Assembly (NCBI RefSeq): GCF_004014855.1
Contig: NZ_CP034930.1
Location: 930,001-994,000, forward strand
Origin: Apibacter raozihei
GTDB taxonomy: Bacteria > Bacteroidota > Bacteroidia > Flavobacteriales > Weeksellaceae
DNA: 64,000 nucleotides
Reading direction: 5' to 3'
This document shows positions 5,945 to 36,991 of the stretch, one piece after another. The position numbers and the translations under genes were made by a program. The number at the start of each line of letters is the position of its first letter. The first letter of the stretch is position 1. Under the pieces are notes generated by a model, which was not told the origin of the DNA, searched no databases, and saw only the letters and a program-made list of their open reading frames with translations.

Positions 5945-6052
5945 TCTCTTAATCGAATAATAAAAATAATTAGCATTTGTGCATTTTATATGCTAACTGT
6001 GTTAATATTTTGGCATTACTTATCGTTATAACAATAAAAAAAAGGATTTCGT

Positions 6053-6060
6053 TATATTTG
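6053..6060 (+). promoter_or_regulatory. -7 element upstream of the 6190 gene
   Basis: TATATTTG matches the consensus; transcription would start near 6067 and leave a leader of about 120 nt. No good TTTG is present 19 nt upstream. Confidence 0.35.
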
Positions 6061-6189
6061 CAGCCTGGTTGAAAGCTTTATCTTTCATATCTTTTATCTC
6101 ATAAAACCCTATTTCACTGATTACTACTTACATATTTTTATTCTCATTCAGGCTAATCCAAAAACGGATATTAACAAATATATATATAA

Positions 6190-7979
6190 ATGAAAAAAAA
6201 TTTTTACTCTTAATTTTAGGTTTTTTTAGTTTTTTAAGTGCTCAAAAAATTAAAACAGAAAATATAGAATTTACAAAAACTATCCAACCTAAACTAATTA
6301 AAACTGAGAGCCCCATAGACATTACTCTAGTTAAAACCTCCTCTTCAGAACAATTAAAAGACTATAATTTAATTAATAGCTATATAACTATTCCCAGCTA
6401 TATCACAAACAATACCAGTACTCCGAAATACATAGCCGTATTGGACTTTAATTATAAACCTGCTACGACTAAGCTAGGTAAGCTGGGTGCTACCTTAAAT
6501 GAAATTTATGTAAAATCTAATATTGATGCCATTTTATATTTGATGTCAAGAGAAAACGGAGTTTTTTATCAAGAACAAATAGAGTTAGCCAATAACTCAC
6601 AAGATAACTGGAAATGGGAAGAATCGAGAATTCCTGCATCGGGAATCACTACTGTATTAAAAAAGACATTACCGGATGCAGATGCAAGTAAATATTTGCT
6701 AAACGGACAGATTAAACCGGAAATTATTTATGAAATCGATAAAAAACAGATTGCACGAATCACGATTCAAGCCTATCAAACCATCAGAGCTGATATGACA
6801 GAACAAACGGTAAAAAACAGATTAGAATTTAAATATCTGAAACCGGGAGATACCTTTACATCTGTAGATTTTGATAATGCCTATTCCGAACTGAAAAACC
6901 ATATTAACCCCATTAATGAAACAAAAATTCTTAGCGCAATTGCAAGTTGGAAAACTGAGAATACTAAAATTACAGATATTAATGACAAAATAAAAAAGAA
7001 ATATAAAATTGCTATTTTAGAAAATATATTAAATGCTTCTTATATTATTGATGAATATGTTAACTCAGAGGAAATTGCAAACGAACTAAAAAATTTAGAT
7101 AGTAAGAATGACGTTCTTTTCTTCTATGTAAAACAAAAAAACAACTTCACATCTAATAACCAACAAATTAAAGAGTTTAGCTATTCTGCTTTACCTAATC
7201 ACATAAGTATACCAGAATCCAATAATAATCTTTTTACTTCGTCTAATTCAAATTCTACGAATGAATCTTATGCAAAAATCAACAAACTCAAACCCTATGA
7301 CACGTGGGATTATAACCCAATTCTTAATCTAAACAATTTTAAGTACCAACTAACCATTTTGAAAGATGAGAGTACTTTGTTTTTAAAATACCAAAATTTT
7401 TTGATGGATGAAATACTTTGGTATATGATAAACATTAAAAATAATACCAAACCGCTGCCATCAAAATCTAAAAAAGAGATGGAACCATTTATCGCATTTG
7501 CAGAAAATTTAAATGCAGAGTATAAGAACAAACATATATTTAAATTTTCGGATTCTAAAAAAAATACGTTATTAAAAGCCAGGGAGTATGTATCCGCTAA
7601 CTATAACTTAAATGACTTTTTTCAATTTATTCCTTCCATAAATATGGCTGTAAATTCCTATTTTGAAACCAAAAACGAGAATTTGACACGAGCCTTTAAC
7701 AATACGGTAGATATAAATTCAATAGTTCAATTAAGAAAATTGGTTTATGATAATTTTTACGAAAATCAAAGAATAGAAAAAGAAAAAGAATTAGATGTAT
7801 ATATAGAAGATAAAGCTAAAAAAATTCCTACTTATAAGGATCGGGCTTATTTTGAATTTAAAAATTCGATCAATGTTTTGGCTGAAATCAATAATAAAAG
7901 ATTATTATCTGACGAAGAATACAAAAATTACCAAGATTTATTAAATGTTCTTCTATATAGATTAAATACCTATAAATAG
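6190..7979 (+). CDS. secreted protein of unknown function, signal peptide interrupted by a frameshift
   Basis: From 6204 to 7979 one frame is open and begins LLLILGFFSFLSAQKI, a classic signal-peptide core and cleavage site. The only ATG in place to start it, at 6190 (MKK..), is one base out of frame. It is separated from the core by eight A and five T (6193-6205). One additional A or T would restore a roughly 597-residue secreted protein. The longest uninterrupted frame has only a TTG at 6441 as a possible start, which would drop the signal peptide. The mature part is rich in Asn, Lys and Ile with a predicted helical C-terminus (residues EKEKELDVYIEDKAKK). It resembles no family I recognise. 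Its base composition is far more AT-rich than the genes at 4-6 kb. It may be a pseudogene, a phase-variable gene, or a homopolymer read error. Confidence 0.6.
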
Positions 7980-13969: not shown

Positions 13970-15805
13970 ATGAGTCTATTTTCTATTCAGGATATACAAA
14001 GTGTTTTAAAACTTAATAAATTTGGTTTTATAGGGAAATCGGTTTCTTGGATTCTTATGAGAATGCTGAAACTTGATAAAATCAATAATTTATACGATCA
14101 AGTTAAAGATTTACCTACGGGAGAATTTTTAACACAGGCTTTGGAAAAACTAGGTATCCGGTATAATATTCATGAAGAAGATCTGAAAAGAATACCTGAA
14201 AAAGGACCTTTTATTCTGGTATGTAATCATCCGCTGGGTGCACTGGACGGAATAATCGTAATGAAAATTCTTTCGGATATTCGTCCGGATTTTAAAATGA
14301 TGTCTAATTTTTTAATTCAAAGAATAGCTCCTTTAAAAGAAGTGGTTGTTCCGGTTAATCCATTTGAAACAAGAAAAGACAGTTTTGACAGTAAAAAAGG
14401 AATTGTTGAAGCCTACCGCCATCTTAAAGAGGGTCATTGCATGGTTATGTTTCCAGCCGGAGAGGTTTCTCATTATAACGCAGAAACTCACGAATATGAA
14501 GACAGGGAATGGACTGAAGGTGGACTTCGTTTTATTCAGAAAGCTAAAGTTCCTGTAATTCCCATGTATTTTCATGCAAAAAACAGCCGGCTTTTTTATA
14601 AGATGTACCGAATACATCCTGATTTACAGACAGCTATGCTTCCTACAGAAATGGTAAGGAAACGTACCAAACCAATTAAAATAAGAATAGGTAAGCCTAT
14701 TTCTGTGAAACAACAGGAAGAATATGCCGATTACAAAAGCCTCGGTAATTTTTTAAGGAACAAAGTATATATGCTGAGATCGTTTTATACAATTCCTAAA
14801 AACCCGTTTAAAAATGTAAAATTCCTTTCCGTTTCTGCTATGGCTAAATCTGCCAATTTCGGAGAGGCAAAGCCTATTATCAGTGAAACTTCGAAAGATC
14901 TTATACTTAAAGAAATTGAACTTTTAAGAGAGTTTGATTGTCAGTTATTTACCAATTATCAATACGAAGTATTTTTTACTAAAGCAGAACGTATCCCCAG
15001 CATTTTAAGAGAAATCGGACGGTTACGTGAAATCACTTTCAGAAAAGTAGGAGAGGGGACTAATGAACCTTTTGATTTAGATGAATTTGATCAGTTCTAT
15101 GATCATTTATTTTTATGGGATAATGAAAAAGAACTTTTAGTGGGTGCTTATCGTATGGGTATGGGCCAGTCTATTTATGAAAACTATGGCATCAATGGTT
15201 TTTATACGGCTTCACTTTTTGAATTTGATTCGGAATTATATCCTTTTTTCCGCCGTACTATCGAAATGGGCAGAGCTTTTATTATCAGTGAATTCCAGCA
15301 AAAACCACTACCTTTATTTCTATTATGGAGAGGTATTGTTCACGTATGTCTCAGAAATCCTTATTATAAATATCTGGTAGGAGGGGTAAGCATAAGTAAT
15401 CAGTTTTCTAATTTTTCCAAATCCATTATGGTGGAATTTATGAGATCGCATTACTTTGACTCTTATGTTGCTCAATATGTACATCCTAAAAATGAATTTA
15501 AAGTACGTTTGAACGAAAATGAAAAGGATCTTTTTTTCGAAGCTGCTGATAATGATCTGAATAAGTTTGATAAACTTATTGATGAACTGGAACCAGCTCT
15601 TCGACTTCCTGTTCTTATAAAGAAATATTTTAAACAGAATGCACGAGTTATCGCTTTTAATGTTGATCCTAAATTTAATGATGCTATTGATGGTTTAATG
15701 TACATTAGAATCAGTGATTTGCCGGAAAATACTATCAGACCCGTATTGGAAGAACTTCAAAAAGAAATGGAACAGAAAACTCACTCAGCTTCCAAAGAAA
15801 AATAA
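13970..15805 (+). CDS. fused PlsC-type and GNAT-type acyltransferase, OlsF-like aminolipid synthase
   Basis: The 611-residue protein joins two acyltransferases. The N-terminal half has a PlsC/LPLAT domain with NHPLGALDG (His87, Asp93) and the phosphate-binding FPAGEVS (about 160). The middle (about 315-450) matches the hemolysin/OlsB-like GNAT family, with a segment LREITFRKVGEGTNEPFD and ELYPFFRRTIEMGRAF. In OlsF of flavobacteria and Serratia the same fusion makes ornithine lipid in two steps: N-acylation, then O-acylation of the 3-hydroxyl. In Bacteroides the same chemistry with glycine is done by the separate GlsB and GlsA. The amino-acid acceptor here is not visible. It lies one base after aspartate kinase. 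The final 130 residues are not assigned. Confidence 0.85.
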   Translation: MSLFSIQDIQSVLKLNKFGFIGKSVSWILMRMLKLDKINNLYDQVKDLPTGEFLTQALEKLGIRYNIHEEDLKRIPEKGPFILVCNHPLGALDGIIVMKILSDIRPDFKMMSNFLIQRIAPLKEVVVPVNPFETRKDSFDSKKGIVEAYRHLKEGHCMVMFPAGEVSHYNAETHEYEDREWTEGGLRFIQKAKVPVIPMYFHAKNSRLFYKMYRIHPDLQTAMLPTEMVRKRTKPIKIRIGKPISVKQQEEYADYKSLGNFLRNKVYMLRSFYTIPKNPFKNVKFLSVSAMAKSANFGEAKPIISETSKDLILKEIELLREFDCQLFTNYQYEVFFTKAERIPSILREIGRLREITFRKVGEGTNEPFDLDEFDQFYDHLFLWDNEKELLVGAYRMGMGQSIYENYGINGFYTASLFEFDSELYPFFRRTIEMGRAFIISEFQQKPLPLFLLWRGIVHVCLRNPYYKYLVGGVSISNQFSNFSKSIMVEFMRSHYFDSYVAQYVHPKNEFKVRLNENEKDLFFEAADNDLNKFDKLIDELEPALRLPVLIKKYFKQNARVIAFNVDPKFNDAIDGLMYIRISDLPENTIRPVLEELQKEMEQKTHSASKEK

Positions 15806-22118: not shown

Positions 22119-24308
22119 TTAAAACCAATATCCTAATCCTACACTAAATACTCCTTTTTTTTGATTTACAGAATAGGTATACATTAAATTTATGGGACCA
22201 AAAGGGCTGTCGTAACCATATCCTAATCCATAACTCGAATATTTATAATCAAAATATTTTAAATCTTTAAAATTATTCTCAACATTAGCAAAGTTTACAT
22301 ATGTTTTTACATAATGATTTTTTAAAATTCTATAATTTAAAGAAGAATAAAAAGAAATAATTTGATTACCGTTAGTATATGCAAAAGGCAGGCCTAAAAA
22401 TTTCTTAAAATTAGTTAATTCCTGCTCGAAATAGCCACCTAAAAAATATTTATATTGCAAGGCAGGTGTTTCAAAAGAAACTCCGTAAAAACCTTGATTT
22501 TCGATGGCAAATCGCTTTCCAATGGGTATAGAATAACTAATATCTCCTTTAATCATTGTAAATTTATCATTTTCAGAATTTGATAAAATTACATGTTTTG
22601 CCGAAGCGTCAAGTTTAAATCCTCTGAAAGGGAAATTTGCATTATCTCTGGTATCTGCTTTAAGAAAAAAATAAGGACTTAAAAAATAACTACCATCTTT
22701 TCTTTCCAAATCACCGTAAGGTGAAAAAGTTGTATAATTATATTCCATTCCTGCGCCAATAGCATATTTTTCAACTAAGGTAGATTGAAAATAGATTTGT
22801 TGATTAAAATTTCGTAGTCTTTTTAATTTATATAAATTTTCTTTAACTTCAGAAAAATTAAAATTAAATACATTGAAAGAAGTATTTGAACCAATGCTTG
22901 GATATATTCCGTTATCTATAAAATAATTAAGATTTGTTCGGAAATTATTACTGAAAATAACATCTAAAGATATCGTAGAGTTATTTAAAAGTAATTTATT
23001 TAATGTTATATTAGTTAATAAAGATGCTTTATAAACATCATCATAATGTAAACCGAAACGTACTGAATTATTCTTTTTTTCATCTAAATGAAGAGTTAAT
23101 TTTTGACTTTCATTTGCAGAATCATTTTTAATCTGGTAATAAACACGATTGAAGTTACCTGTGGAATATAAGCTCGATACTCCTTTGTCTAATTTTATCA
23201 CAGTGGTATTTTGAGGAATTTGAATACCCATTTTACGTTTCACAAATACAGAATCCATAGATTTAGTACCTTGCACGTTAAATTGAGTTATAAAAAGATG
23301 CCTGTTGTAAGGCAATTCCTTGACTCTTGGTCTGTTTAAAGTATCATAACCCTGAGCTTTAGCTATGTCCACCAATTGAGGATAAACTTTTTCAGCAGCA
23401 AGTTTTCCTTTATATAAAATAGAATCTTTTTTATCAAAATCGGTTACTGTATAATTTTTTAAATCAGGTTTAATGATTAAATCAACATAGCTCCTTTCGA
23501 AATCTGTTTTAATATTAATTCTATAGCTAATTATCTGATTTATAATGCTTAATATAGAATTTATATCTTCAGATTTTTGTAATCCAGCACCTAGATCGAC
23601 ACCTATTACAATATCCATTCCTTTATTCTTAAGTGCTCTTGCAGGAAAGTTATTAACAATTCCTCCATCAATTAAAACTTTATTATCTATTTTAACCGGT
23701 TCTATAAGTGAAGGGTATGCACCACTTGCTAATACGCTTAACGGTAAAAATCCGGATTCAATCTGTTCTTCATCTCCGGTTTCCAAATTGGTTGCAATAC
23801 AAAGAAAAGGAATAGGGAGTTTAGAGTAATCATTTATCTGATGTACGTGACTTAATAAATCAGTCAAAAGTAAAAGTGGACCCTGGCCTTTGCTAATAGC
23901 TGATGGTAAAGAAAGTTTAAAGTTATTTATAGGAAGAGTAAGTATGTATTTTTCTCTGTATGATTTATCAAAAAAAGGAATGAAATTACGGTCTTTTTCT
24001 TGCAAAAATAGTTCCATAAAATCAACATTTCCAATTGCCTTTTTAATCTCATCCGGTGAATAACCAGAAGCGTATAAAGCACCTACAATAGCTCCCATAC
24101 TGGTGCCACTGATGTAATCGATTTTTATCCCTGCTTTTTCAATAGCTTCAATAACTTCAACATGAGCAAATCCTTTTGCACCACCACCGCTAAGAACAAG
24201 TCCTACTTTAGGCTGTTTCTCGTTGGTTACTAAGGATTGAGCAATGGCAATGTTACTAGTAAAGTAAGTAAGAATAAAAAAGAAAAAATATTTCTTACAA
24301 TAATTCAT
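22119..24308 (-). CDS. patatin-like phospholipase fused to a D15/BamA-type barrel
   Basis: The 729-residue protein starts with a signal peptide (cleavage near residue 24, after AIAQ). A patatin lipase domain follows (about 34-230), with oxyanion GGGAKG (41-46), nucleophile GTSMG (Ser70) and the dyad DGG (214-216). A single POTRA-like segment (about 330-400) and a 16-strand-type outer-membrane beta-barrel ending in the aromatic terminus GLGYWF complete it. This is the layout of type Vd autotransporter-like proteins such as PlpD, in which the lipase is on or under the barrel. All catalytic residues are present, so phospholipase A activity is likely. It heads the leftward patatin-PNPOx-ybeY-mnmG cluster. 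Confidence 0.9.
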   Translation of the reverse strand: MNYCKKYFFFFILTYFTSNIAIAQSLVTNEKQPKVGLVLSGGGAKGFAHVEVIEAIEKAGIKIDYISGTSMGAIVGALYASGYSPDEIKKAIGNVDFMELFLQEKDRNFIPFFDKSYREKYILTLPINNFKLSLPSAISKGQGPLLLLTDLLSHVHQINDYSKLPIPFLCIATNLETGDEEQIESGFLPLSVLASGAYPSLIEPVKIDNKVLIDGGIVNNFPARALKNKGMDIVIGVDLGAGLQKSEDINSILSIINQIISYRINIKTDFERSYVDLIIKPDLKNYTVTDFDKKDSILYKGKLAAEKVYPQLVDIAKAQGYDTLNRPRVKELPYNRHLFITQFNVQGTKSMDSVFVKRKMGIQIPQNTTVIKLDKGVSSLYSTGNFNRVYYQIKNDSANESQKLTLHLDEKKNNSVRFGLHYDDVYKASLLTNITLNKLLLNNSTISLDVIFSNNFRTNLNYFIDNGIYPSIGSNTSFNVFNFNFSEVKENLYKLKRLRNFNQQIYFQSTLVEKYAIGAGMEYNYTTFSPYGDLERKDGSYFLSPYFFLKADTRDNANFPFRGFKLDASAKHVILSNSENDKFTMIKGDISYSIPIGKRFAIENQGFYGVSFETPALQYKYFLGGYFEQELTNFKKFLGLPFAYTNGNQIISFYSSLNYRILKNHYVKTYVNFANVENNFKDLKYFDYKYSSYGLGYGYDSPFGPINLMYTYSVNQKKGVFSVGLGYWF

Positions 24309-24392
24309 AATAGCAAATATATAAATAATACTTATTCATTATAAATTTATTAATATTGAATGAATTAAATCCTATTACTAAATGTAATTTAC

Positions 24393-24400
24393 TACTTTTG
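24393..24400 (+). promoter_or_regulatory. -7 element before the glycan gene run
   Basis: TACTTTTG fits TAnnTTTG. The predicted start lies about 20 nt before the ATG at 24428, the first gene of the rightward run. A -33 partner is not obvious. Confidence 0.45.
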
Positions 24401-24427
24401 TAAGCAAACTTTATTTATCTATATTCT

Positions 24428-24979
24428 ATGTTATCGATTATAATTATTAATTATAACACATTTCAGCTCACGGTCGAATGTATTAATTCTATAAAAAAAT
24501 CAACGAGTACCAATTACGAAATAATTTTGATTGATAATGCATCAAAAGAGAAAGATCCTAAAGAATTTTTAGATATATTTAAAGATATTAAGCTCATTGA
24601 GTTAGACCAAAATGTTGGATTTGGAAGGGCTAATAATATTGGTATGAAACAATCAGCAGGTGATTATTATTTACTGTTAAATTCTGATACCATTATTAAA
24701 GATCATGCAATTGATGATTGTATCAATTATATGAAATATCATCAAGAAATTGATATTTTAGGTTGTCGATCAAAATTTGAAAATAGAGAAACTCAATTAA
24801 CAGCTTTTAAATATGAAGAAGAATATTCACTGCTAAGATCAATCATTTATTTTATTAAAAGAAATACGTTTCTTCGGTATTCAAATAAAACTAAGCAAAT
24901 TTGGATATCTATTTCAACAATAATAAAAGAATCAAATAAAATTAATGAAATAATTCCCATATTAATGATTAAAATGTAA
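24428..24979 (+). CDS. family 2 glycosyltransferase, C-terminally truncated
   Basis: The N-terminal GT-A domain is intact: SIIIINYNTFQLTVECINS for nucleotide binding, EIILIDNASKE, LDQNVGFGRANNIGMK and the metal-binding LLNSDTI. These are typical of WcaE/WbbL-like rhamnosyl- or glucosyltransferases. Such enzymes are usually about 280-340 residues; this one has 183 and lacks the acceptor-binding half. After about residue 130 the sequence loses resemblance to the family and ends in a Lys/Ile-rich tail directly at the next gene, with which it shares one base (TAATG). No restored reading frame was found, so it is probably a deletion remnant rather than a simple frameshift. Activity is doubtful. 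Confidence 0.75.
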   Translation: MLSIIIINYNTFQLTVECINSIKKSTSTNYEIILIDNASKEKDPKEFLDIFKDIKLIELDQNVGFGRANNIGMKQSAGDYYLLLNSDTIIKDHAIDDCINYMKYHQEIDILGCRSKFENRETQLTAFKYEEEYSLLRSIIYFIKRNTFLRYSNKTKQIWISISTIIKESNKINEIIPILMIKM

Positions 24980-26130
24980 TGGAAAAAAAGAAAATTTTAT
25001 TTTTTCTGCATACCATGAGGGGAGGAGGTGTAGAAAATGTTTTGTTGAACATATTTAATAATTTTGAAAAAACAAATTTTCAATTTACATTATTGTTAAT
25101 TAGAAAAGAAGGAGACTTTTTTTCCCAGATTCCAAAGAATGTACAAATTAAATATTTAGCTTTGGGTAATGAATTTTTATCCAATCTCAAATTTATAAAC
25201 ATATTACAAAAAATATACAGGAAAGTAAAACTAAAAATATTACTAAAAAATCCTTACTTTATAAGAAAGTTTTTTATTTCTGAGTTCAACGATGTTGAAA
25301 TAGCATTTTTAGGAGATTTGATCCCAATACTTGATAAAATTAAAAGAGCTGATTCTTTTACTATAGGATGGGTTCATGGTGATATATATGCGAGTCGTAG
25401 TGATTTGAATATGAAAAAGGAAATACTATCTTCTTCATTAAATTTAGATAAAGTTGTTTATGTTTCCAATAAAGCCTTAGAAAATGGTATTTTATGGAAT
25501 CCAAAAATTTCAAGTAATGCAATTGTAATTTATAATCCTATAGACAAAGAAAATATTTTGAGTAAATCTTTAAAAAAAATTGATTTTAATTATGATGAAA
25601 TAACATTTATATGTGTTGGTAGATTAAGTGGCATTAAAGGATATGACAATGTTTTAAAAGTGCATCAAAGACTCATTAAGGATGGATTTAGACACCATGT
25701 CATTATTATTGGTAAAGGAGAAGATGAAAGTATTGTAAGAAGTACAATAGAAAAATATAAAATAAAAGAAACATTTCATCTCTTAGGTCATAAGCAAAAT
25801 CCCTTTCCATATTTAAAAGCTTCTGATATATATTTGTTAAACTCTAAAAGTGAAGGGTATCCTTTAGCAGTTAAAGAGGCTTTATTATTAGGAAAACCTA
25901 TGATTGTTACTAATGTTGGAGGAGTAACAGAAATTGTAGACGAAAGCAATGCTATTATTATCGATTATGATGAAAACCAGCTTTACAATGCTATGAAAAA
26001 AATGATTACAGATAAAGAGTTTAGAAATAAACTCCAATTAGTTAATCAAAAACATTATAAAGAATACGATCAAAACATAATTTATAATTCATATAAAAAG
26101 TTATTAAATTCTCAAAAAGTAAGCAATTAA
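24979..26130 (+). CDS. family 4 glycosyltransferase
   Basis: A 383-residue GT-B enzyme. The N-terminal acceptor domain starts with HTMRGGGVENVLLNI, the C-terminal donor domain with FICVGRLSGIKGYDN (about 211-225). The nucleotide-sugar contact motif SEGYPLAVKE (291-300, Glu292 and Glu300) matches the EX7E element of GT4. Relatives add hexose or N-acetylhexosamine in lipopolysaccharide and capsule synthesis. It is cytoplasmic, with no signal peptide. It overlaps the preceding truncated gene by one base and is followed after 18 bp by a GT2. Confidence 0.9.
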   Translation: MEKKKILFFLHTMRGGGVENVLLNIFNNFEKTNFQFTLLLIRKEGDFFSQIPKNVQIKYLALGNEFLSNLKFINILQKIYRKVKLKILLKNPYFIRKFFISEFNDVEIAFLGDLIPILDKIKRADSFTIGWVHGDIYASRSDLNMKKEILSSSLNLDKVVYVSNKALENGILWNPKISSNAIVIYNPIDKENILSKSLKKIDFNYDEITFICVGRLSGIKGYDNVLKVHQRLIKDGFRHHVIIIGKGEDESIVRSTIEKYKIKETFHLLGHKQNPFPYLKASDIYLLNSKSEGYPLAVKEALLLGKPMIVTNVGGVTEIVDESNAIIIDYDENQLYNAMKKMITDKEFRNKLQLVNQKHYKEYDQNIIYNSYKKLLNSQKVSN

Positions 26131-26148
26131 ATATAATTATATATTTCC

Positions 26149-27072
26149 ATGACATCTCAATCAATAAATATATCTGTAATAACTCCTTCATATAATAGGG
26201 CACATACATTATATAGAGTTTTTGATTCTCTTAAAAATCAGACCTTACAAAATTTTGAGTGGATTATAATTGATGACGGCTCAACAGATAATACAAAAGA
26301 TACTGTAAATGAATTTATTCAAAAAAATATTTTTCCAATCAACTATTACAAACAGGAAAATAAGCACAAATTTTTATCTCTCTTTAAAGGTTTAGAATTA
26401 GCTAAAGGAGAGTATATTGCCTTTATAGATTCAGATGATAAATTATTGCCACATGCATTTGAAACTTTTTATAAAGAAATAATTAAATTACCTGAAAATG
26501 AAAAATACTATGGAGTCATAGGCTTATGCAGTTATGAAAACGGGGAAATTGCTGGAGATAAATTTCCAGTTTCACCACTTGATACTTCTATATTTGAAAT
26601 GAGATATAAGTATAAAGTTCATGGAGATAAATGGGGTTTGTCAATTAAAAAAGCTTATCAGGAAATAAAATTTGATACATCACCATACGAAGAAAAAGGA
26701 TTTATTCCTGAAACTGTACTTTTATATTTATTTGATAAACAAGAATATAAAACCCGATATGTTAATATTACATCGTTGATATATGTTTCCGATGAGAATG
26801 ATAGCAAGTCTTTATCTAATAATTTTTATTCATCTGAAAACTCTTTTGGATTATGTGAAAATTATAAAACTTTTATAACTTGTTATAAAGATAAATTTAT
26901 TCAATATCCTTTAGTCTATTTCAGAAATTTCATTGCTTATATTCTTTTCGGTTTAAAAGATAAAAGATCATTTTCTGAATTACTCAAGCTAAACGGTTTA
27001 GCTCTAAAGTTTTTTGTATTGTTATTTTACCCAATCGTTTTTTTGTTTAAAAATAAGGACATTAAAGATTAG
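26149..27072 (+). CDS. family 2 glycosyltransferase
   Basis: The 307-residue protein has an intact GT-A domain: SVITPSYNRAHTLYRVFDSL, WIIIDDGSTDNT and the metal-binding FIDSDDKL (about 97-104). A hydrophobic C-terminal segment near residues 283-300 could anchor it to the membrane. The enzyme transfers a sugar from a nucleotide donor to a growing glycan; donor unknown. The next gene starts 3 bp after the stop, so the two are translationally close. Confidence 0.9.
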   Translation: MTSQSINISVITPSYNRAHTLYRVFDSLKNQTLQNFEWIIIDDGSTDNTKDTVNEFIQKNIFPINYYKQENKHKFLSLFKGLELAKGEYIAFIDSDDKLLPHAFETFYKEIIKLPENEKYYGVIGLCSYENGEIAGDKFPVSPLDTSIFEMRYKYKVHGDKWGLSIKKAYQEIKFDTSPYEEKGFIPETVLLYLFDKQEYKTRYVNITSLIYVSDENDSKSLSNNFYSSENSFGLCENYKTFITCYKDKFIQYPLVYFRNFIAYILFGLKDKRSFSELLKLNGLALKFFVLLFYPIVFLFKNKDIKD

Positions 27073-27074
27073 AA

Positions 27075-27611
27075 ATGAAGTCAATTATACAGAAAGATTA
27101 TTTCAGACATGCAGGAGTTTGGATAAAATATCCGCTAATTAAAACCATCTTTAATATAGACTTTAGATATATATATTTCTTCAGAAAAATAACGGATAAA
27201 AAAACCTATCGCATTACCAATTTTTTTTATAAATTATATTACAAGTATTTGTCAGATCAGATTAATTATTATATTGACCCATCTGCAAATATAGATGAAG
27301 GATTTTATGTTATTCATGCACACAGAATATTTATTGGTCCAAAAGTTAAAATTGGAAAAAATTGTAATTTTTCTCATTGCACAACTATAGGACAAACAAA
27401 AGAGATAGGACATCCTTCAATAGGAGATAATGTGTGGGTTGGTACATTTTGTGTTTTGGAAGGAAATATAAAAATTGGGAATAATGTTTTAATAGCTCCT
27501 CTTACATATGTAAATTTCGATGTTCCTGATAATTCTTTAGTAATAGGAAATCCTGCAAAGATACTTTCGAGAACTCATGCTACTCAAGATTATATAAATA
27601 ACGTTATTTAG
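27075..27611 (+). CDS. hexapeptide-repeat O-acyltransferase (serine acetyltransferase-like), copy 1
   Basis: The 178-residue protein has an N-terminal helical block (KDYFRHAGVWIKYP, FRYIYFFRK) shared with two neighbours. A left-handed beta-helix follows, of hexapeptides such as IGKNCN, IGDNVW, IGNNVL. The catalytic His is present in YVIHAHRIFIG and a second conserved His in GHPSIGD, as in serine O-acetyltransferase. In this context it probably acetylates a sugar of the surface glycan rather than serine. It is the first of three related copies (27075, 27618, 29318) interleaved with glycosyltransferases. Confidence 0.88.
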   Translation: MKSIIQKDYFRHAGVWIKYPLIKTIFNIDFRYIYFFRKITDKKTYRITNFFYKLYYKYLSDQINYYIDPSANIDEGFYVIHAHRIFIGPKVKIGKNCNFSHCTTIGQTKEIGHPSIGDNVWVGTFCVLEGNIKIGNNVLIAPLTYVNFDVPDNSLVIGNPAKILSRTHATQDYINNVI

Positions 27612-27617
27612 ATTATA

Positions 27618-28157
27618 ATGAATTTAATAAAATCAGATTTATACAGATATACAGGAAAAGATAACAGTTCCGTTTTTTTAAATTTTTTTAAAATAAAAGC
27701 GTTCAGGTATCAGTTTTATTTTAGAAAAAGTTGTGAGAAAAATAATATCATTTTACGAATGATATTAAAGTTAATTAATCACCGATTAATTTCCAAATAT
27801 GGTTTTTTTCTAGAAAGTGGAGGTCAAGTTGGGCCAGGATTAAAAGTTCTGAATACGTCTCTTATTATTATAAATGCAGGAGCCGAAGTAGGTGAAAATT
27901 GCACCTTATCTCAAGGTGTTACTATTGGTGTGGCTAACAGAGGTAAACGTAAAGGTTGTCCCGTAATAGGAGACAATGTATGGATAGGACCTTATAGTAT
28001 GATAGTTGGTAAAATAAAAATTGGAAATAATGTTTGGATAGGTCCAAATAGCTATATTAATATTGATGTACCAGACAATTCAAGAGTTTTTGGTAATCCG
28101 CCCCAAATTTTACCGGATGAAAATGCAGTTAAAGATTATATTATTAATCCTGTCTAA
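27618..28157 (+). CDS. hexapeptide-repeat acyltransferase, copy 2, catalytic His replaced
   Basis: The 179-residue product shares the helical block (KSDLYRYTGK, FRYQFYFRKS) and left-handed beta-helix of the copies on either side. Where they have a His before the first coils (VIHAHR in copy 1, LGHWGT in copy 3), this one reads VLNTSLIII, with Asn-Thr instead. The second His is also absent (GCPVIGD). The substrate loop and the hexapeptides are otherwise intact. It may be inactive, use another residue, or play a structural role in a mixed trimer. It overlaps the next glycosyltransferase gene by one base. Confidence 0.82.
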   Translation: MNLIKSDLYRYTGKDNSSVFLNFFKIKAFRYQFYFRKSCEKNNIILRMILKLINHRLISKYGFFLESGGQVGPGLKVLNTSLIIINAGAEVGENCTLSQGVTIGVANRGKRKGCPVIGDNVWIGPYSMIVGKIKIGNNVWIGPNSYINIDVPDNSRVFGNPPQILPDENAVKDYIINPV

Positions 28158-29311
28158 TGGCTAAAAAGAAAATTTTAATAAGAATTGGTTCTTTAAGACA
28201 CGGTGGTGCTGAAAAAGTCTTAACAACTCTTTTGAAAAACATTCCTCCAGATAAGTATGAAATAGATTTATTATTAAATCTGAAATTTGGTAAATATTTA
28301 AAAGATATTCCTGATTGGATAACTATATATTATCTGAACAAAGGGGAAATGATAACAACCAACAGACCATTAGAAATCCCGGTAAAGATCTACAGGAAAG
28401 TATATCAAAAAATTTTAAAAATATTTCCAAAATTGCTTTATGCATTTATTCTCAAAAATAAAAAGTATGATATTGAACTTATAGCTAATCATAGTTTGCT
28501 AAATGAAATGCTTAAAAGTCCATTACATAGCTCTAAAAAAGTAGTATGGATACATAGTGACATATTCAACAATGATGAAGTATTAGAGTCCGATTTACAG
28601 AACTATTTTGAAGCAGATAAAATATTAGTCATCTCAGATAAAATCAAGGAAGAATTTAATAAAATATCTAGAAATGAATCGGATAAAAATAAAATAGTGA
28701 AAATATTTAATCCAATAGATTCGAATGAGATAATAAATCTTTCTTTAGAAAATATTGACACGGAACATTTATTTTCGAACTGCAAGCTAAAAACATTTGT
28801 TTCTGTAGGCACAGTATATCCAGCAAAAGGATTCGACAGATTAATTAATGTTCATAAAAAATTAATAGATGAAGGATTTTACCATAATATTTTAATAGTA
28901 GGAGATGGCCATGATTTAGGTAAAATTGCCAGTCAAATAAAAAATTTAGATGTTGAAAACACAGTTAAACTGGTAGGATTTAAAGAAAATCCATATCCAT
29001 TGATTAAAAACGCCGATTATTATATACTATCCTCACGTTACGAAGGATATCCTACCGTTTTATTTGAAGCACTTACTCTTGGAAAACCTTTGATAGCAAC
29101 CGATGTATCTGGAGCTGCTGAAATTCTTGAAAATGGAAAATTAGGTATGGTTGTTGAAAATTCGGAAGAAGGAATATATAATGGAATTAAAAAATTTCTT
29201 GAAAGTCCTGAAGTGCCTTTGGCTTATAGCAAAGAAATGAATGACAAAAAATTGCCTTTTTCATTAAAAAATGCTGTAAATTCGTTAACAAATATTTTTG
29301 ATAATCTGTAA
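28157..29311 (+). CDS. family 4 glycosyltransferase
   Basis: The 384-residue GT-B protein begins RIGSLRHGGAEKVLTTLL and carries VGTVYPAKGFDRL at the domain junction. The donor motif SRYEGYPTVLFEALTLGKP with EX7E follows, then DVSGAAEIL. It is clearly a paralogue of the 24979 and 29875 proteins, as seen from the same N-terminal GGAEKVL pattern. Sugar and linkage cannot be predicted. It lies between two hexapeptide acyltransferase genes and is separated from the next by 6 bp. Confidence 0.9.
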   Translation: MAKKKILIRIGSLRHGGAEKVLTTLLKNIPPDKYEIDLLLNLKFGKYLKDIPDWITIYYLNKGEMITTNRPLEIPVKIYRKVYQKILKIFPKLLYAFILKNKKYDIELIANHSLLNEMLKSPLHSSKKVVWIHSDIFNNDEVLESDLQNYFEADKILVISDKIKEEFNKISRNESDKNKIVKIFNPIDSNEIINLSLENIDTEHLFSNCKLKTFVSVGTVYPAKGFDRLINVHKKLIDEGFYHNILIVGDGHDLGKIASQIKNLDVENTVKLVGFKENPYPLIKNADYYILSSRYEGYPTVLFEALTLGKPLIATDVSGAAEILENGKLGMVVENSEEGIYNGIKKFLESPEVPLAYSKEMNDKKLPFSLKNAVNSLTNIFDNL

Positions 29312-29317
29312 TTACTT

Positions 29318-29866
29318 ATGACTAAAACACTGATTGAAAAAGATTATTATAGGATACATGGTAGATGGCCGGGTAAAATCATTTTTAAAAGCATGGTTGA
29401 TCCTAACTTCAGATATATATATTTTTTTAGGAAAGCTTCCAGACACAGTAAAAAATCATTAAAAGGTATTTTTTACAGAATGGTGCTACATCAGTTACAA
29501 GTTCGGTTTGGATATCAAATTTATCCCGGGACAGATATTGGAGAAGGTTTTTATCTGGGACATTGGGGAACTGTAATTATTAATCCTAAAGTTAAAATTG
29601 GTAAAAATTGCAATGTAGCACCTGGAGTGACTATTGGACAAACAAACAGAGGAGATAAAGAAGGAGTACCTGTTTTAGGTAACGAAGTATGGATAGGTAC
29701 AAATGCCGTTATTGTAGGTAATATAAATATAGGAAATAATGTTTTGATTGCTCCCAATGCCTATGTTACACGAGACGTTCCAGACAATTCTGTAGTTGTT
29801 GGAAATTTAGCACGTATTATACAAAATGAAGAAGCAACGGTTGGTTATATTGAAAATAAAGTGTAA
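29318..29866 (+). CDS. hexapeptide-repeat O-acyltransferase (serine acetyltransferase-like), copy 3
   Basis: The 182-residue protein has the same N-terminal block (EKDYYRIHGRWPGK, FRYIYFFRKA) and beta-helix as copies 1 and 2. The catalytic His is in FYLGHWGTVIINP. The second His seen in copy 1 is replaced (GVPVLGN). Acetyl-CoA is the likely donor and a glycan hydroxyl the likely acceptor. The gene starts 6 bp after one GT4 gene and ends 8 bp before another. Confidence 0.87.
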   Translation: MTKTLIEKDYYRIHGRWPGKIIFKSMVDPNFRYIYFFRKASRHSKKSLKGIFYRMVLHQLQVRFGYQIYPGTDIGEGFYLGHWGTVIINPKVKIGKNCNVAPGVTIGQTNRGDKEGVPVLGNEVWIGTNAVIVGNINIGNNVLIAPNAYVTRDVPDNSVVVGNLARIIQNEEATVGYIENKV

Positions 29867-29874
29867 GAGCAACC

Positions 29875-30990
29875 ATGATTAAATTATTAATTGTAAATAC
29901 AGATCTTCGTGGAGGAGGAGCAGAAAAGGTTTTAGTTAATCTGGTAAACAATCTTGATAATTCAAAATACGATATAACATTATTTACAATATTCAAAGAA
30001 GGAGTTAACAGAAAAGATTTAAGCCCGGAAATAAAACAAAAATGGTATTTTGAAAAGCCATTTAAAGGGTACTCGAGGCTAGCATTACTTTTTTCACCTG
30101 AGTTTTTATACAGAACCTTTATTAAAGATGATTACGATGTAGTTATATCTTATTTGGAAGGATTTCCTTCAAGAATTGTATCCGGATGTACAAATAAAAA
30201 AACGAAATTAATTAGCTGGATTCATTTGGAACTTTATAAAGATACAATATCCTATGAATTCAGAAATTACAAAGAAGCACTTAAAGTTTACAATAAATTT
30301 AATAAAATCGTTTGTGTAGCTGAATCTGTCAAAAACTGCTTTCAAAAAAGTAGTAATATTCCTTCAAAAAGTCTTGAAGTAATATACAATATGCTTGATT
30401 TGAATGATATCAAAACAAAGGGAATTGCAAACCTAAATCCAGCATTAAAAAAAAATAGACTTAGATTGTGTACCGTAGGAAGACTAAATCCGCAAAAAGG
30501 CTATGACAGGCTTTTACGGATTATATCCAAGCTTAAAAACGAAGATAAACTTAATTTTGAATTATTAATTTTAGGCTTAGGCCCCTTAGAAGATGAATTC
30601 AAAAAGTTCATAAATGATAATAATCTTTCAGATACGGTCGTATTACTGGGATATCAATCAAACCCATATTCTTATATAAAATCATCAGATCTTTTTGTAT
30701 GCTCTTCATATAAAGAAGGATACAGTACCGTAGTTACAGAATCGGTAATTTTAGGAACACCAGTTATAACCACAAATTGTTCAGGAATGTCAGAAATTCT
30801 CGATGAAGGAAAGTGTGGAATCATAGTTGACAATGATGAAAAATCGTTGTACTTAGGATTAAAAGATCTTTTAACAGATGAAAATAAGTTATCTAACTAC
30901 AAACAAAAAACGATGGAAAGATCAAAATTTTTTGAATCCAGGAATGATACAGAAGCCTTCGATAATTTGATTCAAGAAGTAATAAATTAA
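29875..30990 (+). CDS. family 4 glycosyltransferase
   Basis: A 371-residue GT-B enzyme starting LLIVNTDLRGGGAEKVLVNL. Domain junction TVGRLNPQKGYDRL and donor motif SSYKEGYSTVVTESVILG are visible, then NCSGMSEIL. It is the third GT4 paralogue of this gene run. No flippase, polymerase or transport gene is present in the window, so the glycan could be lipopolysaccharide, capsule or glycoprotein glycan. The next gene (an amidino-group enzyme) begins 6 bp later and appears to be on the same transcript. Confidence 0.9.
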   Translation: MIKLLIVNTDLRGGGAEKVLVNLVNNLDNSKYDITLFTIFKEGVNRKDLSPEIKQKWYFEKPFKGYSRLALLFSPEFLYRTFIKDDYDVVISYLEGFPSRIVSGCTNKKTKLISWIHLELYKDTISYEFRNYKEALKVYNKFNKIVCVAESVKNCFQKSSNIPSKSLEVIYNMLDLNDIKTKGIANLNPALKKNRLRLCTVGRLNPQKGYDRLLRIISKLKNEDKLNFELLILGLGPLEDEFKKFINDNNLSDTVVLLGYQSNPYSYIKSSDLFVCSSYKEGYSTVVTESVILGTPVITTNCSGMSEILDEGKCGIIVDNDEKSLYLGLKDLLTDENKLSNYKQKTMERSKFFESRNDTEAFDNLIQEVIN

Positions 30991-30996
30991 AATTAT

Positions 30997-31920
30997 ATGC
31001 AATTAAACATAAAAAATGAAACATCGCAATTAAAAACAGTGGTTCTGGGGCAACCGGTATCAGTAGGTAAAACACCCCAAATAAAAGACACTTACGATGC
31101 CAAATCTTATGAAAGTGTTTCACAAGGCACATATCCTCAGGAACTAGACATAATTAATGAAATGACATGCTTTGAAAATATTTTATCTAAGCATGGAGTG
31201 GAAGTTTTACGTCCCAGAATTTTAGAAAATTGCAATCAGGTTTTTGCCAGAGACGTTGCTTTTGTTATTGACGATAAAATTATAATATCTAATATAATTC
31301 CAGATCGTTCTGATGAACAGGAAGCCTACAAAGAAATTTTTGATACCATATACTATCAGAAAATATATAACTTACCGGAGAAAGCACACGTTGAAGGAGG
31401 AGACATTATTGTTTTTGATGATATTGTATTTTGTGGAGTTTATAAAGGAAACGATTATTCAAATTTAAAAACGGCAAGAACCAATATATATGCAATTGAA
31501 TTTTTAAATGAATTATATCCAGATAAAACATTTGTAGATATTGAATTAAAAAAAGACGATAAAGACCCTTATAAAGGAATTCTACACCTGGATTGTACAT
31601 TTATGCCGGTAGGAGATAAAAAAGCGATTGTATATAAAGACGGATTTAAAAACGAAAAAGATTTTCACTTTCTGGTTGATTTTTTTGGGAAATCCAATAT
31701 TTTTGAAATAACACCAGAAGAAATGTATTATATGAACACTAATATATTTTCTATTTCACCTCAATTAGTCGTATCAGAAGAAAGGTTTACCCGATTGAAC
31801 CATTTCCTTGAAACAAATTGGGGTATTCAGGTTGAAAAAATTCCTTACTACGAAATATCAAAAATGGGAGGACTTTTACGATGTTCCACTTTACCTTTAA
31901 TTAGACAAGATGAAAAATAA
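30997..31920 (+). CDS. arginine deiminase-superfamily (amidinotransferase-fold) enzyme
   Basis: The 307-residue protein has the pentein-fold guanidino-group catalytic set: FARD (83-86), HVEGGD (131-136), HLDCTF (His197, Asp199) and a C-terminal nucleophile Cys296 in GGLLRCSTLPL. Family members hydrolyse or transfer the amidino group of arginine, dimethylarginine or related compounds. The motif set suggests arginine or a modified arginine, but the substrate is not certain. It overlaps ctlX by 11 bp, so the two enzymes very probably act on the same pathway. It is 6 bp after the last glycosyltransferase. Confidence 0.85.
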   Translation: MQLNIKNETSQLKTVVLGQPVSVGKTPQIKDTYDAKSYESVSQGTYPQELDIINEMTCFENILSKHGVEVLRPRILENCNQVFARDVAFVIDDKIIISNIIPDRSDEQEAYKEIFDTIYYQKIYNLPEKAHVEGGDIIVFDDIVFCGVYKGNDYSNLKTARTNIYAIEFLNELYPDKTFVDIELKKDDKDPYKGILHLDCTFMPVGDKKAIVYKDGFKNEKDFHFLVDFFGKSNIFEITPEEMYYMNTNIFSISPQLVVSEERFTRLNHFLETNWGIQVEKIPYYEISKMGGLLRCSTLPLIRQDEK

Positions 31921-32857
31921 ACAAAATACACAATCCATATTGATGATTGAGCCGGTTTCTTTTGGATTTAATGAGGAAACAGCAAACGATAATAAATTTC
32001 AATCAAACGATCTGAGCATAGACAGTAAATCTATACAAAGAAAAGCTCTCGACCAGTTTACAAATATGGTTGAAAAGTTAAGAAAGCATGGAATTTCAGT
32101 ATATGTTGTCAAAGATACATTAGAACCCTATACACCAGATTCAATATTTCCGAATAACTGGGTTTCTTTTCATTCTAATGGAGCTGTGGCTATATATCCA
32201 ATGTATGCGCCTAACAGAAGAGAAGAACGCAGAGAAAATATTCTGGATTATCTGGAAGAACAAGGTTTTCAGATCAACGAAATAACAGATTATAGCCAGG
32301 CAGAGGAAGAAGATGTCTTTCTTGAAGGAACAGGAAGCATGGTTTTAGATCGTAAAAACAATATTGCCTATGCAGCAGTATCCGAGCGTACTAATGAAGA
32401 TTTGTTTATTGAATATTGTGAAGATTTTGAATTTACACCTGTAGTATTTCATGCTACTCAGAAAATTGAGGGAATAGAATATCCTGTGTATCATACCAAT
32501 GTGATGATGAGTGTTGCAGATAACTTTGCCATTATCTGTTTTGACGTCATTAAAGACTTGAAAGAAAGAAAATTTGTTTCAGATTTTTTACACACATCTC
32601 AGAAAGAAGTGATTGCAATTACAGAAGAGCAGATGAATCACTTCGCTGGAAATGTTTTAGAAGTAGAAGCAGAAGATGGAACCAAATACCTTATAATGTC
32701 CGATACAGCATATCATTCATTGAACAGAGGACAGTTAGATGTTATTACTAAATACTGTGATATTCTGGTGGTGGACATATCTGTAATTGAAACTTACGGA
32801 GGAGGAAGTGCCCGTTGCATGATGGCTGAAGTATTTTTAGAAAAAGATGAAATATAA
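31910..32857 (+). CDS. ctlX: citrulline utilization hydrolase CtlX-like
   Basis: The 315-residue protein is a second pentein-fold hydrolase. It shows FPNNWVSFH (80-88), FLEGTGSMVLDR (137-148), YHTNVMMS (His195) and the nucleophile Cys303 in GGGSARCMMAE. In Francisella, CtlX is needed for use of citrulline as an arginine substitute. The preceding enzyme could supply citrulline from arginine, and CtlX could process it further; this coupling is inferred from the 11-bp gene overlap. The run ends here, 64 bp before the tRNA gene. Confidence 0.88.
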   Translation: MKNKQNTQSILMIEPVSFGFNEETANDNKFQSNDLSIDSKSIQRKALDQFTNMVEKLRKHGISVYVVKDTLEPYTPDSIFPNNWVSFHSNGAVAIYPMYAPNRREERRENILDYLEEQGFQINEITDYSQAEEEDVFLEGTGSMVLDRKNNIAYAAVSERTNEDLFIEYCEDFEFTPVVFHATQKIEGIEYPVYHTNVMMSVADNFAIICFDVIKDLKERKFVSDFLHTSQKEVIAITEEQMNHFAGNVLEVEAEDGTKYLIMSDTAYHSLNRGQLDVITKYCDILVVDISVIETYGGGSARCMMAEVFLEKDEI

Positions 32858-32921: not shown

Positions 32922-32995
32922 GGCGAGGTAGCTCAGCTGGTTAGAGCACTGGATTCATAACCCAGAGGTCGGCAGTTCAAGTCTGCTCCTCGCTA
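32922..32995 (+). tRNA. tRNA-Met (anticodon CAU)
   Basis: The 74-nt sequence folds as a cloverleaf. Its acceptor stem is GGCGAGG with CCTCGCT, the last pair G-U; the D-stem is GCTC/GAGC. The anticodon arm has loop TTCATAA with an A-C mismatch at its top pair, and the T-arm is GGCAG-TTCAAGT-CTGCT. The discriminator is A and no full CCA is encoded. The CAU anticodon and the lack of an initiator-type acceptor mismatch suggest elongator Met; a lysidine-modified Ile tRNA is the alternative. Confidence 0.95.
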
Positions 32996-33001
32996 CAAAA
33001 T

Positions 33002-35773: not shown

Positions 35774-36991
35774 TCAAAAATAGTCAGAAAAGTAAGGTTG
35801 TTCTTTAGGAATTATATTCTCAAGTGTCCTCAGCATTTTAAAGCTGGTTTTCAAACGTTCAATTTTATAAAAGTAAGAAGGACTTCGGTAACTCATTAGC
35901 ATAGCTGTTAAAGTACAGATATCAAGTTCTACGGACGGGCCAATGGGCTCTTTTATAATTTCAATTTTTCCTTTTTTTGACCAATGAAGTCCAAAAGGAC
36001 CATTATTCCATTTTGCAATCGGATCGGAAATAAGAAAATGAAAAGGGCGGGAACTGAATAAAAAAGGATACTTTTCTAAAAATGCTTCCACATCTACTAT
36101 TCTTGCCATATAATAAGGCTTTATAGTTTGCATAATCTGACTATCATCAAGCAAAAATGCAATAGGGTCATTCTTATATATATTTCCTTTAACGCTGTTC
36201 ACCATCGAGAAATGCGCTGAAATAAAATTCCAAAGACCTTTTTGTGATTCCATATCAAGATATATAAGTTCTTTAATATTGAAAACATCACCACTTATCC
36301 AATACATAACATATCCCATAGGTTCATCATGGTTATTATAATAAACAGCCGCATATCTTTCATCTTCATTTTCCCACCTCCAATATTCTTCCCATTCATA
36401 TTGTCCTCGTATCAAAGCTCCGTGGTTAGTCTGTGCGAATCTGTTATATGTGTTTATTACATCTATGTCATCAACAGGCTTTCTTTCCACATATCCCGGC
36501 AGATCTATATGTTTAGGAAGCTGAGAGTCTTTGATAGTAAAAGTCATATGATCAGACATGATTTCCCATCCTTTTCTTCTATAATAAGGAACTGAATAAG
36601 GATATAAATAGGATATAGTTTGTCCTTTTTCTTTCATTCGTTCCAGCCCCGTAATAATCAAATTGTTCATTAAGCCCATATTGGCATATTCAGGATAAGT
36701 ACCTACGCCGGTTAAACCTCCCATTTTTACAATTTTTCCGTGAATATTTACCCTGCAAGGGTAAATACACAATTGAGACACCAGATGCTCATCATTAAAC
36801 CAGCCTATAGCATCAGCTCGTTGTAAAATTGGTCTTTTAGATCGCATAATTTCACCTTCTTCATACCCGCTATCTTCTAAAATTTTATTGGTTACCTGAA
36901 ATACGTAGCGCAATAATTCGTTGTATTGGTCTAAATGCTGCACTCCAATTTCACGAAATTGCAATTCTTTCCTAAGTTTTTTGTTAGCCAT
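35774..36991 (-). CDS. Eis-like GNAT acetyltransferase with sterol-carrier-like C-terminus
   Basis: The 405-residue product has the two tandem GNAT regions plus C-terminal SCP2-like domain of the Eis family. Visible are VKMGGLTGVGTYPEYANMGLMNNLI (acetyl-CoA loop, about 88-112), YLYPYSVPYYRRKGWE, and a C-terminal FGLHWSKKGKIEI. Eis enzymes acetylate amines such as aminoglycosides or protein lysines. Which applies here is unknown. Length fits the family. It shares no promoter with the neighbouring ThrE genes, which lie upstream on the same strand. Confidence 0.85.
   Translation of the reverse strand: MANKKLRKELQFREIGVQHLDQYNELLRYVFQVTNKILEDSGYEEGEIMRSKRPILQRADAIGWFNDEHLVSQLCIYPCRVNIHGKIVKMGGLTGVGTYPEYANMGLMNNLIITGLERMKEKGQTISYLYPYSVPYYRRKGWEIMSDHMTFTIKDSQLPKHIDLPGYVERKPVDDIDVINTYNRFAQTNHGALIRGQYEWEEYWRWENEDERYAAVYYNNHDEPMGYVMYWISGDVFNIKELIYLDMESQKGLWNFISAHFSMVNSVKGNIYKNDPIAFLLDDSQIMQTIKPYYMARIVDVEAFLEKYPFLFSSRPFHFLISDPIAKWNNGPFGLHWSKKGKIEIIKEPIGPSVELDICTLTAMLMSYRSPSYFYKIERLKTSFKMLRTLENIIPKEQPYFSDYF

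Follow-up and report, generated by a model that had tools for sequence, protein, structure and literature searches.

A short deiminase-like gene paired with ctlX in Apibacter raozihei: a putative ATP-free route from arginine to ornithine in Bacteroidota

The described systems closest to the gene pair analysed here are the arginine deiminase (ADI) pathway ArcA-ArcB-ArcC, the dihydrolases ArgZ/AgrE and AstB, the citrulline ureidase Ctu of Francisella, and the putative citrullinase CtlX. The pair is located in a window of 64,000 nucleotides (the whole stretch of DNA that was analysed, positions 930001-994000) of the single-contig 3.29-Mb genome of Apibacter raozihei, and it comprises a deiminase-like gene and a ctlX gene, i.e., the following features:

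30997..31920, + strand: deiminase-like gene (protein 1), open reading frame (ORF) of 307 aa
31910..32857, + strand: ctlX (protein 2), putative citrullinase, ORF of 315 aa
31910..31920, + strand: 11-bp overlap of the deiminase-like gene and ctlX, from the ORF coordinates

This geometry, as well as the end of a glycosyltransferase gene (29875-30990) 6 bp before the pair, had been described exactly in the initial annotation, which also placed protein 1 in the ADI superfamily and named protein 2 CtlX-like; both labels hold, since protein 1 passes the Pfam ADI model and protein 2 passes NF046062. The 11-bp overlap suggests that the two genes are translationally coupled. Elsewhere in the genus, the junction is an 8- or 11-bp overlap in five loci, a 4-bp overlap in one, and a 3-bp gap in another.

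CtlX of A. raozihei belongs, over the curated cut-off, to the same family as the CtlX described in PMC9007349, and it carries the same signature, in which FTRD is changed to FPNN and HLD to HTN (PMC9007349). The neighbours of ctlX in that paper are ocd or aruG, whereas here its partner is a deiminase gene, joined by RocD in Bacteroidales relatives; neither rocD nor ornithine aminotransferase is mentioned in the main text of PMC9007349. Protein 1 resembles ArcA (TIGR01078) in its fold, its catalytic residues, and its likely reaction, and some of its relatives keep ArcC/ArcB alongside, but its family is about 305 aa long versus 408 model positions and scores 36.0-49.3 bits versus 489 in 7/7 members scanned. 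Unlike the ArcA-ArcB-ArcC pathway, the window genome has no carbamate kinase match and holds CtlX in its place. The net conversion of arginine into ornithine would be that of ArgZ/AgrE and AstB, and the CtlX fold is closest to ArgZ/AgrE; however, two enzymes would share both hydrolyses here, and protein 1 has an Asp where AgrE has Asn71. The conversion of citrulline into ornithine is also that of Francisella Ctu, although Ctu is non-homologous and belongs to PF00795 (PMC9007349). In a survey of 80 Bacteroidetes published in 2016, no arc pathway was detected (PMC5300872), and a literature search, conducted mostly at listing level with passages of PMC9007349, PMC12366310, PMC11659421, PMC5300872, and PMC12493201, returned no link between CtlX and a deiminase in Bacteroidota.

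We propose that the pair probably encodes an arginine deiminase and a citrullinase that together would catabolize arginine in two steps, without ATP. Protein 1 would hydrolyse arginine, with a thiouronium intermediate on Cys296, and release citrulline and ammonia; Asp86 and Asp199 would grip the guanidinium group, as judged by homology. CtlX would then hydrolyse the ureido group of citrulline, yielding ornithine, CO2, and ammonia, and in many relatives RocD could transform ornithine into glutamate semialdehyde. The pair would do the job of ArcA plus ArcB/ArcC, with the ATP forgone. The deiminase and citrullinase reactions themselves are what we infer from the lines of evidence given below. The conversion of arginine into citrulline, ornithine, and ammonia in Bacteroidota bears on nitrogen flow, because these bacteria are major gut and animal symbionts; outside the field, the significance is modest.

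Co-occurrence of the pair and exchange of ctlX with arcC and arcB

A sample of 60 related genomes was searched for the deiminase-like gene, CtlX, carbamate kinase, RocD, and argG. The deiminase-like gene is present in 47 of them (including one, G045, whose match is split in two pieces) and CtlX in 48, and 47 hold both; the deiminase never occurs alone (0/60) and CtlX does so once (1/60). The joint presence of both genes is not due to chance (Fisher p 9e-12, kinship uncorrected). The two genes are adjacent and in the same order, from overlapping to 150 nt apart, in 27 of 48 cases. Of 45 order-level loci of the deiminase, 19 include a citrate synthase gene, in most cases preceded by enolase, and the other neighbours of the pair or of the deiminase include argS, rocD, and further genes. 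In seven loci (L099:6454-10066 and likewise L100-L105), belonging to four families of the order (f6, f8, f11, and f15), the deiminase, ctlX, and arginyl-tRNA synthetase genes are contiguous, argS following ctlX after a short gap or with an overlap; ArgS was verified on L099. Another arrangement is found in L085 (5298-6269), and likewise in L092 and L093, where an amidohydrolase-like protein is encoded directly upstream of the deiminase. The protein of L085, the only one scanned, matches NF005365 ('hypothetical protein') with 514.6 bits (cut-off 340), together with weaker cytosine deaminase matches.

In a quick tree of the deiminase (92 rows), the genus clusters with Bacteroidales (SH-aLRT 98), apart from its family-mates (97), and thus the deiminase of the genus was likely acquired from Bacteroidales by horizontal transfer. 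In the CtlX tree, the genus is a clade by itself (98), placed next to Bacteroidales and some relatives from the order by a less well supported join (81); a transfer of CtlX from Bacteroidales is unproven.

The deiminase collection scan matched at least 584 relatives, and the best 80 named loci were analysed with up to 6 kb of DNA on each side of the gene, several neighbourhoods ending early at contig ends. Among these 80 loci, 51 contain ctlX, 25 contain arcC and/or arcB (arc-type loci), four contain neither, and none contains both. The rocD gene is present in 16 of them, ten of the ctlX type and six of the arc type. The identity of the families was confirmed on one representative each: the carbamate kinase scores 303.6 bits against NF009007 (cut-off 266) and 325.9 against TIGR00746, under its 358; the ornithine carbamoyltransferase scores 583 bits (cut-off 515) and RocD 656 bits (cut-off 378). 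CtlX was not found genome-wide in any of the 29 genomes of the arc type (25) or with neither partner (4), whose completeness is not stated, while the same query matched 13/13 ctlX-type control genomes. Conversely, no carbamate kinase over the cut-off was found in the 60 relatives (weak matches in 8, none exceeding 30 bits) or in 20 ctlX-type genomes (weak matches in 7, none exceeding 26 bits), and the window genome gave no match at all; the arc-type controls scored 327-367 bits in 4/4 cases, two of them over the cut-off. CtlX and ArcC/ArcB are therefore mutually exclusive in the loci and genomes searched.

This operon exchange provides the strongest support for the conversion of arginine into citrulline and then into ornithine. 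Relatives that are about 60% identical to protein 1, with all the catalytic residues, share operons with genes for carbamate kinase and ornithine carbamoyltransferase, and this linkage to ArcB/ArcC implies that the product of the deiminase must be citrulline and not ornithine. At the operon level, the presence of CtlX in place of ArcC/ArcB also speaks independently for its citrullinase activity, which is still unproven. The initial annotation had suggested that the pair could take arginine to citrulline "and beyond", and this idea is now well supported by the catalytic residues, by the operons of relatives with carbamate kinase, ornithine carbamoyltransferase, and RocD, and by the linkage to argS in seven loci.

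Three of the four loci with neither partner (L115 at 6001-6912, L118, and L120; two Dysgonomonas records and one Prevotella metagenome-assembled genome) carry a deiminase gene without CtlX or ArcC/ArcB in the surrounding 6 kb, and CtlX was not matched elsewhere in their genomes. In the fourth, L172, the DNA ends soon after the deiminase gene.

Active sites, folds, and alternative activities

CtlX scores 435.5 bits against NCBIfam NF046062 (cut-off 334) and contains the active-site motifs FPNN (N83), EGTGS (E139), and HTN (H195/N197), as well as C303; these five residues (N83, E139, H195, N197, and C303) are invariant in the 95/95 CtlX proteins aligned. By its sequence, it is a member of this family with FPNN/HTN in place of FTRD/HLD, having an Asn at both positions where the deiminase has a guanidinium-binding Asp. 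The CtlX profile matched none of the solved structures. The AlphaFold model (pLDDT 95.2) superimposes best on the dihydrolases ArgZ/AgrE (Z 28.4-29.1; for ArgZ, Z 29.1, rmsd 2.6, 266 residues aligned), followed by AstB (Z 26.5, rmsd 3.1, 293 aligned), DDAH-1 (Z 26.1, rmsd 2.8, 272 aligned), and ADI (Z 23.8, rmsd 3.1, 277 aligned). Dihydrolases of the ArgZ/AgrE type act on the ureido stage too, and thus the closeness of the CtlX model to ArgZ is fitting and weakly supports the citrullinase assignment.

Protein 1 passes the Pfam models ADI PF02274 (45.8 bits, cut-off 22.8) and DDAH_eukar PF19420 (40.1 bits, cut-off 23), and it reaches no curated NCBIfam model. It scores 42.5 bits against the ArcA model TIGR01078, whose cut-off is 489.1, and its six scanned relatives (36.0-49.3 bits) are all below this value as well; since this curated score test fails, we have not filed protein 1 as a TIGR01078 ArcA. 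Its catalytic set, assigned by homology, consists of D86 (FARD), E133 (EGGD), H197/D199 (HLD), and C296. These residues and R161, which may possibly bind the carboxylate, are invariant in the 122/122 deiminase-like proteins aligned, including 25 linked to arcC/arcB; the Cys, His, Glu, and two guanidinium-binding Asp residues that characterize ArcA are therefore all present. The EGGD, HLD, and RC motifs were placed by alignment to ADI 4bof; FARD is poorly aligned there and rests on the alignments with AgrE and DDAH1. The deiminase profile recovered ADI, ArgZ/AgrE, and DDAH among the solved structures, weakly, and a single-sequence search of these structures gave no match for protein 1 or CtlX. 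The AlphaFold model of protein 1 (pLDDT 94.2) has the alpha/beta-propeller fold of guanidino-modifying enzymes and superimposes on ADI 4bof with Z 30.6 and rmsd 2.6 over 281 residues.

Relatives of the pair are found in many Bacteroidota, and the loci described here indicate that some members of this group do have a deiminase pathway. The curated ArcA model scores this diverged deiminase at about one tenth of its cut-off, and the short, diverged sequence may explain why the 2016 survey missed the pathway.

Several observations weigh against an arginine deiminase-citrullinase module. Protein 1 is far under the curated cut-offs for ArcA, ArgZ, and DDAH; its fold alone cannot tell a deiminase, a dihydrolase, and an amidinotransferase apart, and the top seven Foldseek matches are all amidinotransferases. 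In the fold comparison of CtlX, AstB, which is a dihydrolase, and DDAH-1, which is not, are tied, and the authors of PMC9007349 describe CtlX as putative and call for biochemical work. At the genomic level, the two genes lie apart or on separate contigs in 21 of 48 cases. All the arc-type loci form one clade with a single change on the tree, so the exchange of ctlX with arcC/arcB represents one evolutionary event and not many, and the arc-type genomes, scanned for CtlX (and in 4 controls for carbamate kinase), may also hold a classical ArcA. Over the 60 genomes, RocD is weakly associated with the pair (39/47 vs 7/13, p 0.058); the window genome yielded no RocD over the cut-off (best 233 vs 378) and no match for ornithine cyclodeaminase. 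Finally, the presence of argG, argC, and argH in the window genome means that a futile cycle is possible absent regulation.

One alternative is that protein 1 is an amidinotransferase, acting for example on an amino sugar of a glycan, or a dimethylargininase, and that CtlX clears the ureido by-product. The amidinotransferase (AGAT/StrB1) fold fits protein 1 as well as that of ADI does (Z 30.1 vs 30.6), Foldseek ranks the structures 4jdw, 5wpi, and 6u1r first, and a glycan cluster that could offer an acceptor lies directly upstream of the pair in six of eight genus loci; the match to the DDAH_eukar model PF19420 would agree with a dimethylargininase. However, the relatives that are about 60% identical sit with carbamate kinase and ornithine carbamoyltransferase, i.e., with users of citrulline, and no homologues of the GT4 and hexapeptide genes of the cluster were found near the pair in the loci examined outside the genus. 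We thus regard this alternative as unlikely.

Even less probable is an ArgZ-like dihydrolase activity of protein 1, which would convert arginine directly into ornithine and leave to CtlX another ureido compound, e.g., N-acetylcitrulline or carbamoylputrescine. The fold of ArgZ fits almost equally well (Z 30.2 vs 30.6 for ADI), and the model NF052232, weak on protein 1 (29.3 bits, cut-off 450), scores above the ArcA model in two of the six relatives. Dihydrolases are defined by an Asn at the position of the first substrate Asp of ADI, which is the role of Asn71 in ArgZ. In the alignment, Asp86 of protein 1 is matched with Asn71 of the AgrE sequence, and this position is Asp in 122/122 proteins, so that protein 1 follows the deiminase pattern here rather than that of dihydrolases. 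Moreover, the linkage to ArcB/ArcC requires citrulline as the product, and a pathway through acetylcitrulline would not be general because 23 of 47 pair-holding genomes lack argG.

Arginine and ornithine metabolism around the pair

A full-length argG match is missing in those 23 genomes, and therefore citrulline should not reach arginine in them; 21 of the 23 have a RocD over the cut-off, which fits with the catabolic direction of the proposed deiminase-citrullinase module. RocD was rejected as a general partner of the pair, given p 0.058 over the 60 relatives and none over the cut-off in the window genome; within the genus, six of nine genomes lack it at this threshold. Ornithine cyclodeaminase was likewise rejected, being over its cut-off in three of 60 relatives, two of them fragments just above it, and having no match in the window genome.

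Arginine biosynthesis is encoded in a cluster of the window genome, where argG, argC, argB, argH, proC, and the gene for an N-acetylornithine carbamoyltransferase exceed their cut-offs, and those for a transaminase of the argD type and a deacylase of the ArgE/DapE type fall short of theirs. The proC gene (221.6 bits, cut-off 197) is found inside this cluster (L194:7194-8800, G000:C1), as is a 240-aa ORF that matches no NCBIfam model. The two PF00185 matches of this genome are the N-acetylornithine carbamoyltransferase (306.5 bits, cut-off 288) and an aspartate carbamoyltransferase (354.3 bits, cut-off 263), and neither is a catabolic ornithine carbamoyltransferase. To judge from the enzyme named, arginine biosynthesis would proceed here via acylated citrulline and would yield no free ornithine; since free ornithine is bypassed, the pair may be its source. 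A candidate user of this ornithine, as a hypothesis, is encoded in the same window:

13970..15805, + strand: OlsF-like bifunctional acyltransferase, 611 aa (PF19576 + PF13444)

This protein scores 418.3 bits against NF052615, below the cut-off of 620, and it contains the two acyltransferase domains (PF19576 at 23-271 and PF13444 at 352-453). OlsF over the cut-off of NF052615 was found in 0/60 relatives; the enzyme occurs in the CFB group (PMC12493201). Ornithine lipids as an outlet were not supported by counts: among the 47 pair-holding genomes, eight lack RocD, eight lack an OlsF-like match, and one (G041) lacks both versus 1.4 expected by chance. It is conceivable, and we put it forward quite tentatively, that the pathway is widespread in Bacteroidota and exists in two interchangeable builds, deiminase-ArcC-ArcB with ATP and deiminase-CtlX without it, both of which may end in RocD, and that in this genus the ATP-free build has shifted from catabolism to the supply of free ornithine, which the OlsF-like protein encoded 15 kb away might use to make ornithine lipids.

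The glycan cluster upstream of the pair

The genes and signals flanking the pair are the following:

24393..24400, + strand: TACTTTTG, promoter-like -7 element ahead of the first glycan gene (pattern match)
24428..29866, + strand: glycan cluster encoding a GT2 (short, 183 aa), a GT4, a GT2, two hexapeptide acyltransferases, a GT4, and a hexapeptide acyltransferase (ORFs, Pfam)
29875..30990, + strand: GT4 glycosyltransferase (PF00534, PF13692), final gene of the glycan cluster
30991..30996, + strand: 6-bp gap between the glycosyltransferase and the deiminase-like gene, from the ORF coordinates
32922..32996, + strand: tRNA-Met(CAT), next gene downstream of ctlX

Homologues of the GT4 and hexapeptide genes of the cluster are present upstream of the pair in six of eight genus loci; of the other two, one is without them and the second sits on a contig of insufficient length to tell. 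None was found near the pair in the loci examined outside the genus, where many neighbour genes are unidentified, and GT2-like relatives of the first gene of the cluster occur, isolated, near CtlX or the deiminase in three non-genus loci. The 6-bp gap is special to the window genome, since the same ORF caller gives 63-212 bp in the seven other genus loci.

The motif TAnnTTTG, the -7 element of Bacteroidota, is found at most 120 nt before the deiminase gene in 7/8 genus loci, 78/90 other relatives, and 9/24 arc-type loci, versus means of 0.9, 10.5, and 1.3, respectively, in shuffled sequences, the related loci not being independent. The window is the sole genus locus without the motif, none being found within 160 nt upstream of the pair; the nearest one on the same strand, at 30552, is within the glycosyltransferase gene. 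Seven further matches to the pattern fall within 24301-31000, and thus TACTTTTG at 24393..24400 may be due to chance.

The last glycosyltransferase of the window is apparently not orthologous to that of the sister species, as its best match in five sister loci shares 31-33% identity and corresponds to another glycosyltransferase of the cluster, whereas the two preceding genes are orthologous to those of the sisters (64-66% and 71-77%). Most simply, the intergenic promoter would have been lost when the last glycosyltransferase was replaced, so that the pair came to lie 6 bp after the end of the glycan operon. Transcriptional read-through from the glycan operon into the pair is plausible in the window genome, where the -7 element seen in 7/8 genus loci is missing, as a recent side effect of this replacement. 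The linkage to the glycan operon pointed out in the initial annotation is thus upheld for the window as far as spacing and plausible read-through are concerned; a functional tie is not, as 7/8 genus loci keep their own -7 element. The processing of amidino or carbamoyl groups on sugars, also raised there, finds no support, the GT4 and hexapeptide homologues adjoining the pair in its own genus only. The glycan genes are probably chance company. That the pair works within the glycan operon to modify a glycan, as the 6-bp spacing, the lack of a -7 element within 160 nt, and the cluster upstream in 6/8 genus loci might suggest, is most improbable, given the other loci that hold the pair without these homologues, the TAnnTTTG motif before the deiminase in most genus loci and other relatives, and a last glycosyltransferase that looks like a replacement.

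Three further proteins of the window deserve mention. The first glycan gene (24428-24979) encodes a GT2 of 183 aa whose Pfam match ends at position 128 of 168, and it may be truncated. Beside the cluster, on the minus strand, 22119-24308 encodes a patatin-like phospholipase fused to an Omp85_2 barrel, a PlpD-like arrangement. Downstream of the pair, also on the minus strand, 35774-36991 encodes a protein with GNAT domains and a sterol-carrier domain (PF13527, PF17668, PF13530), in an Eis-like arrangement.

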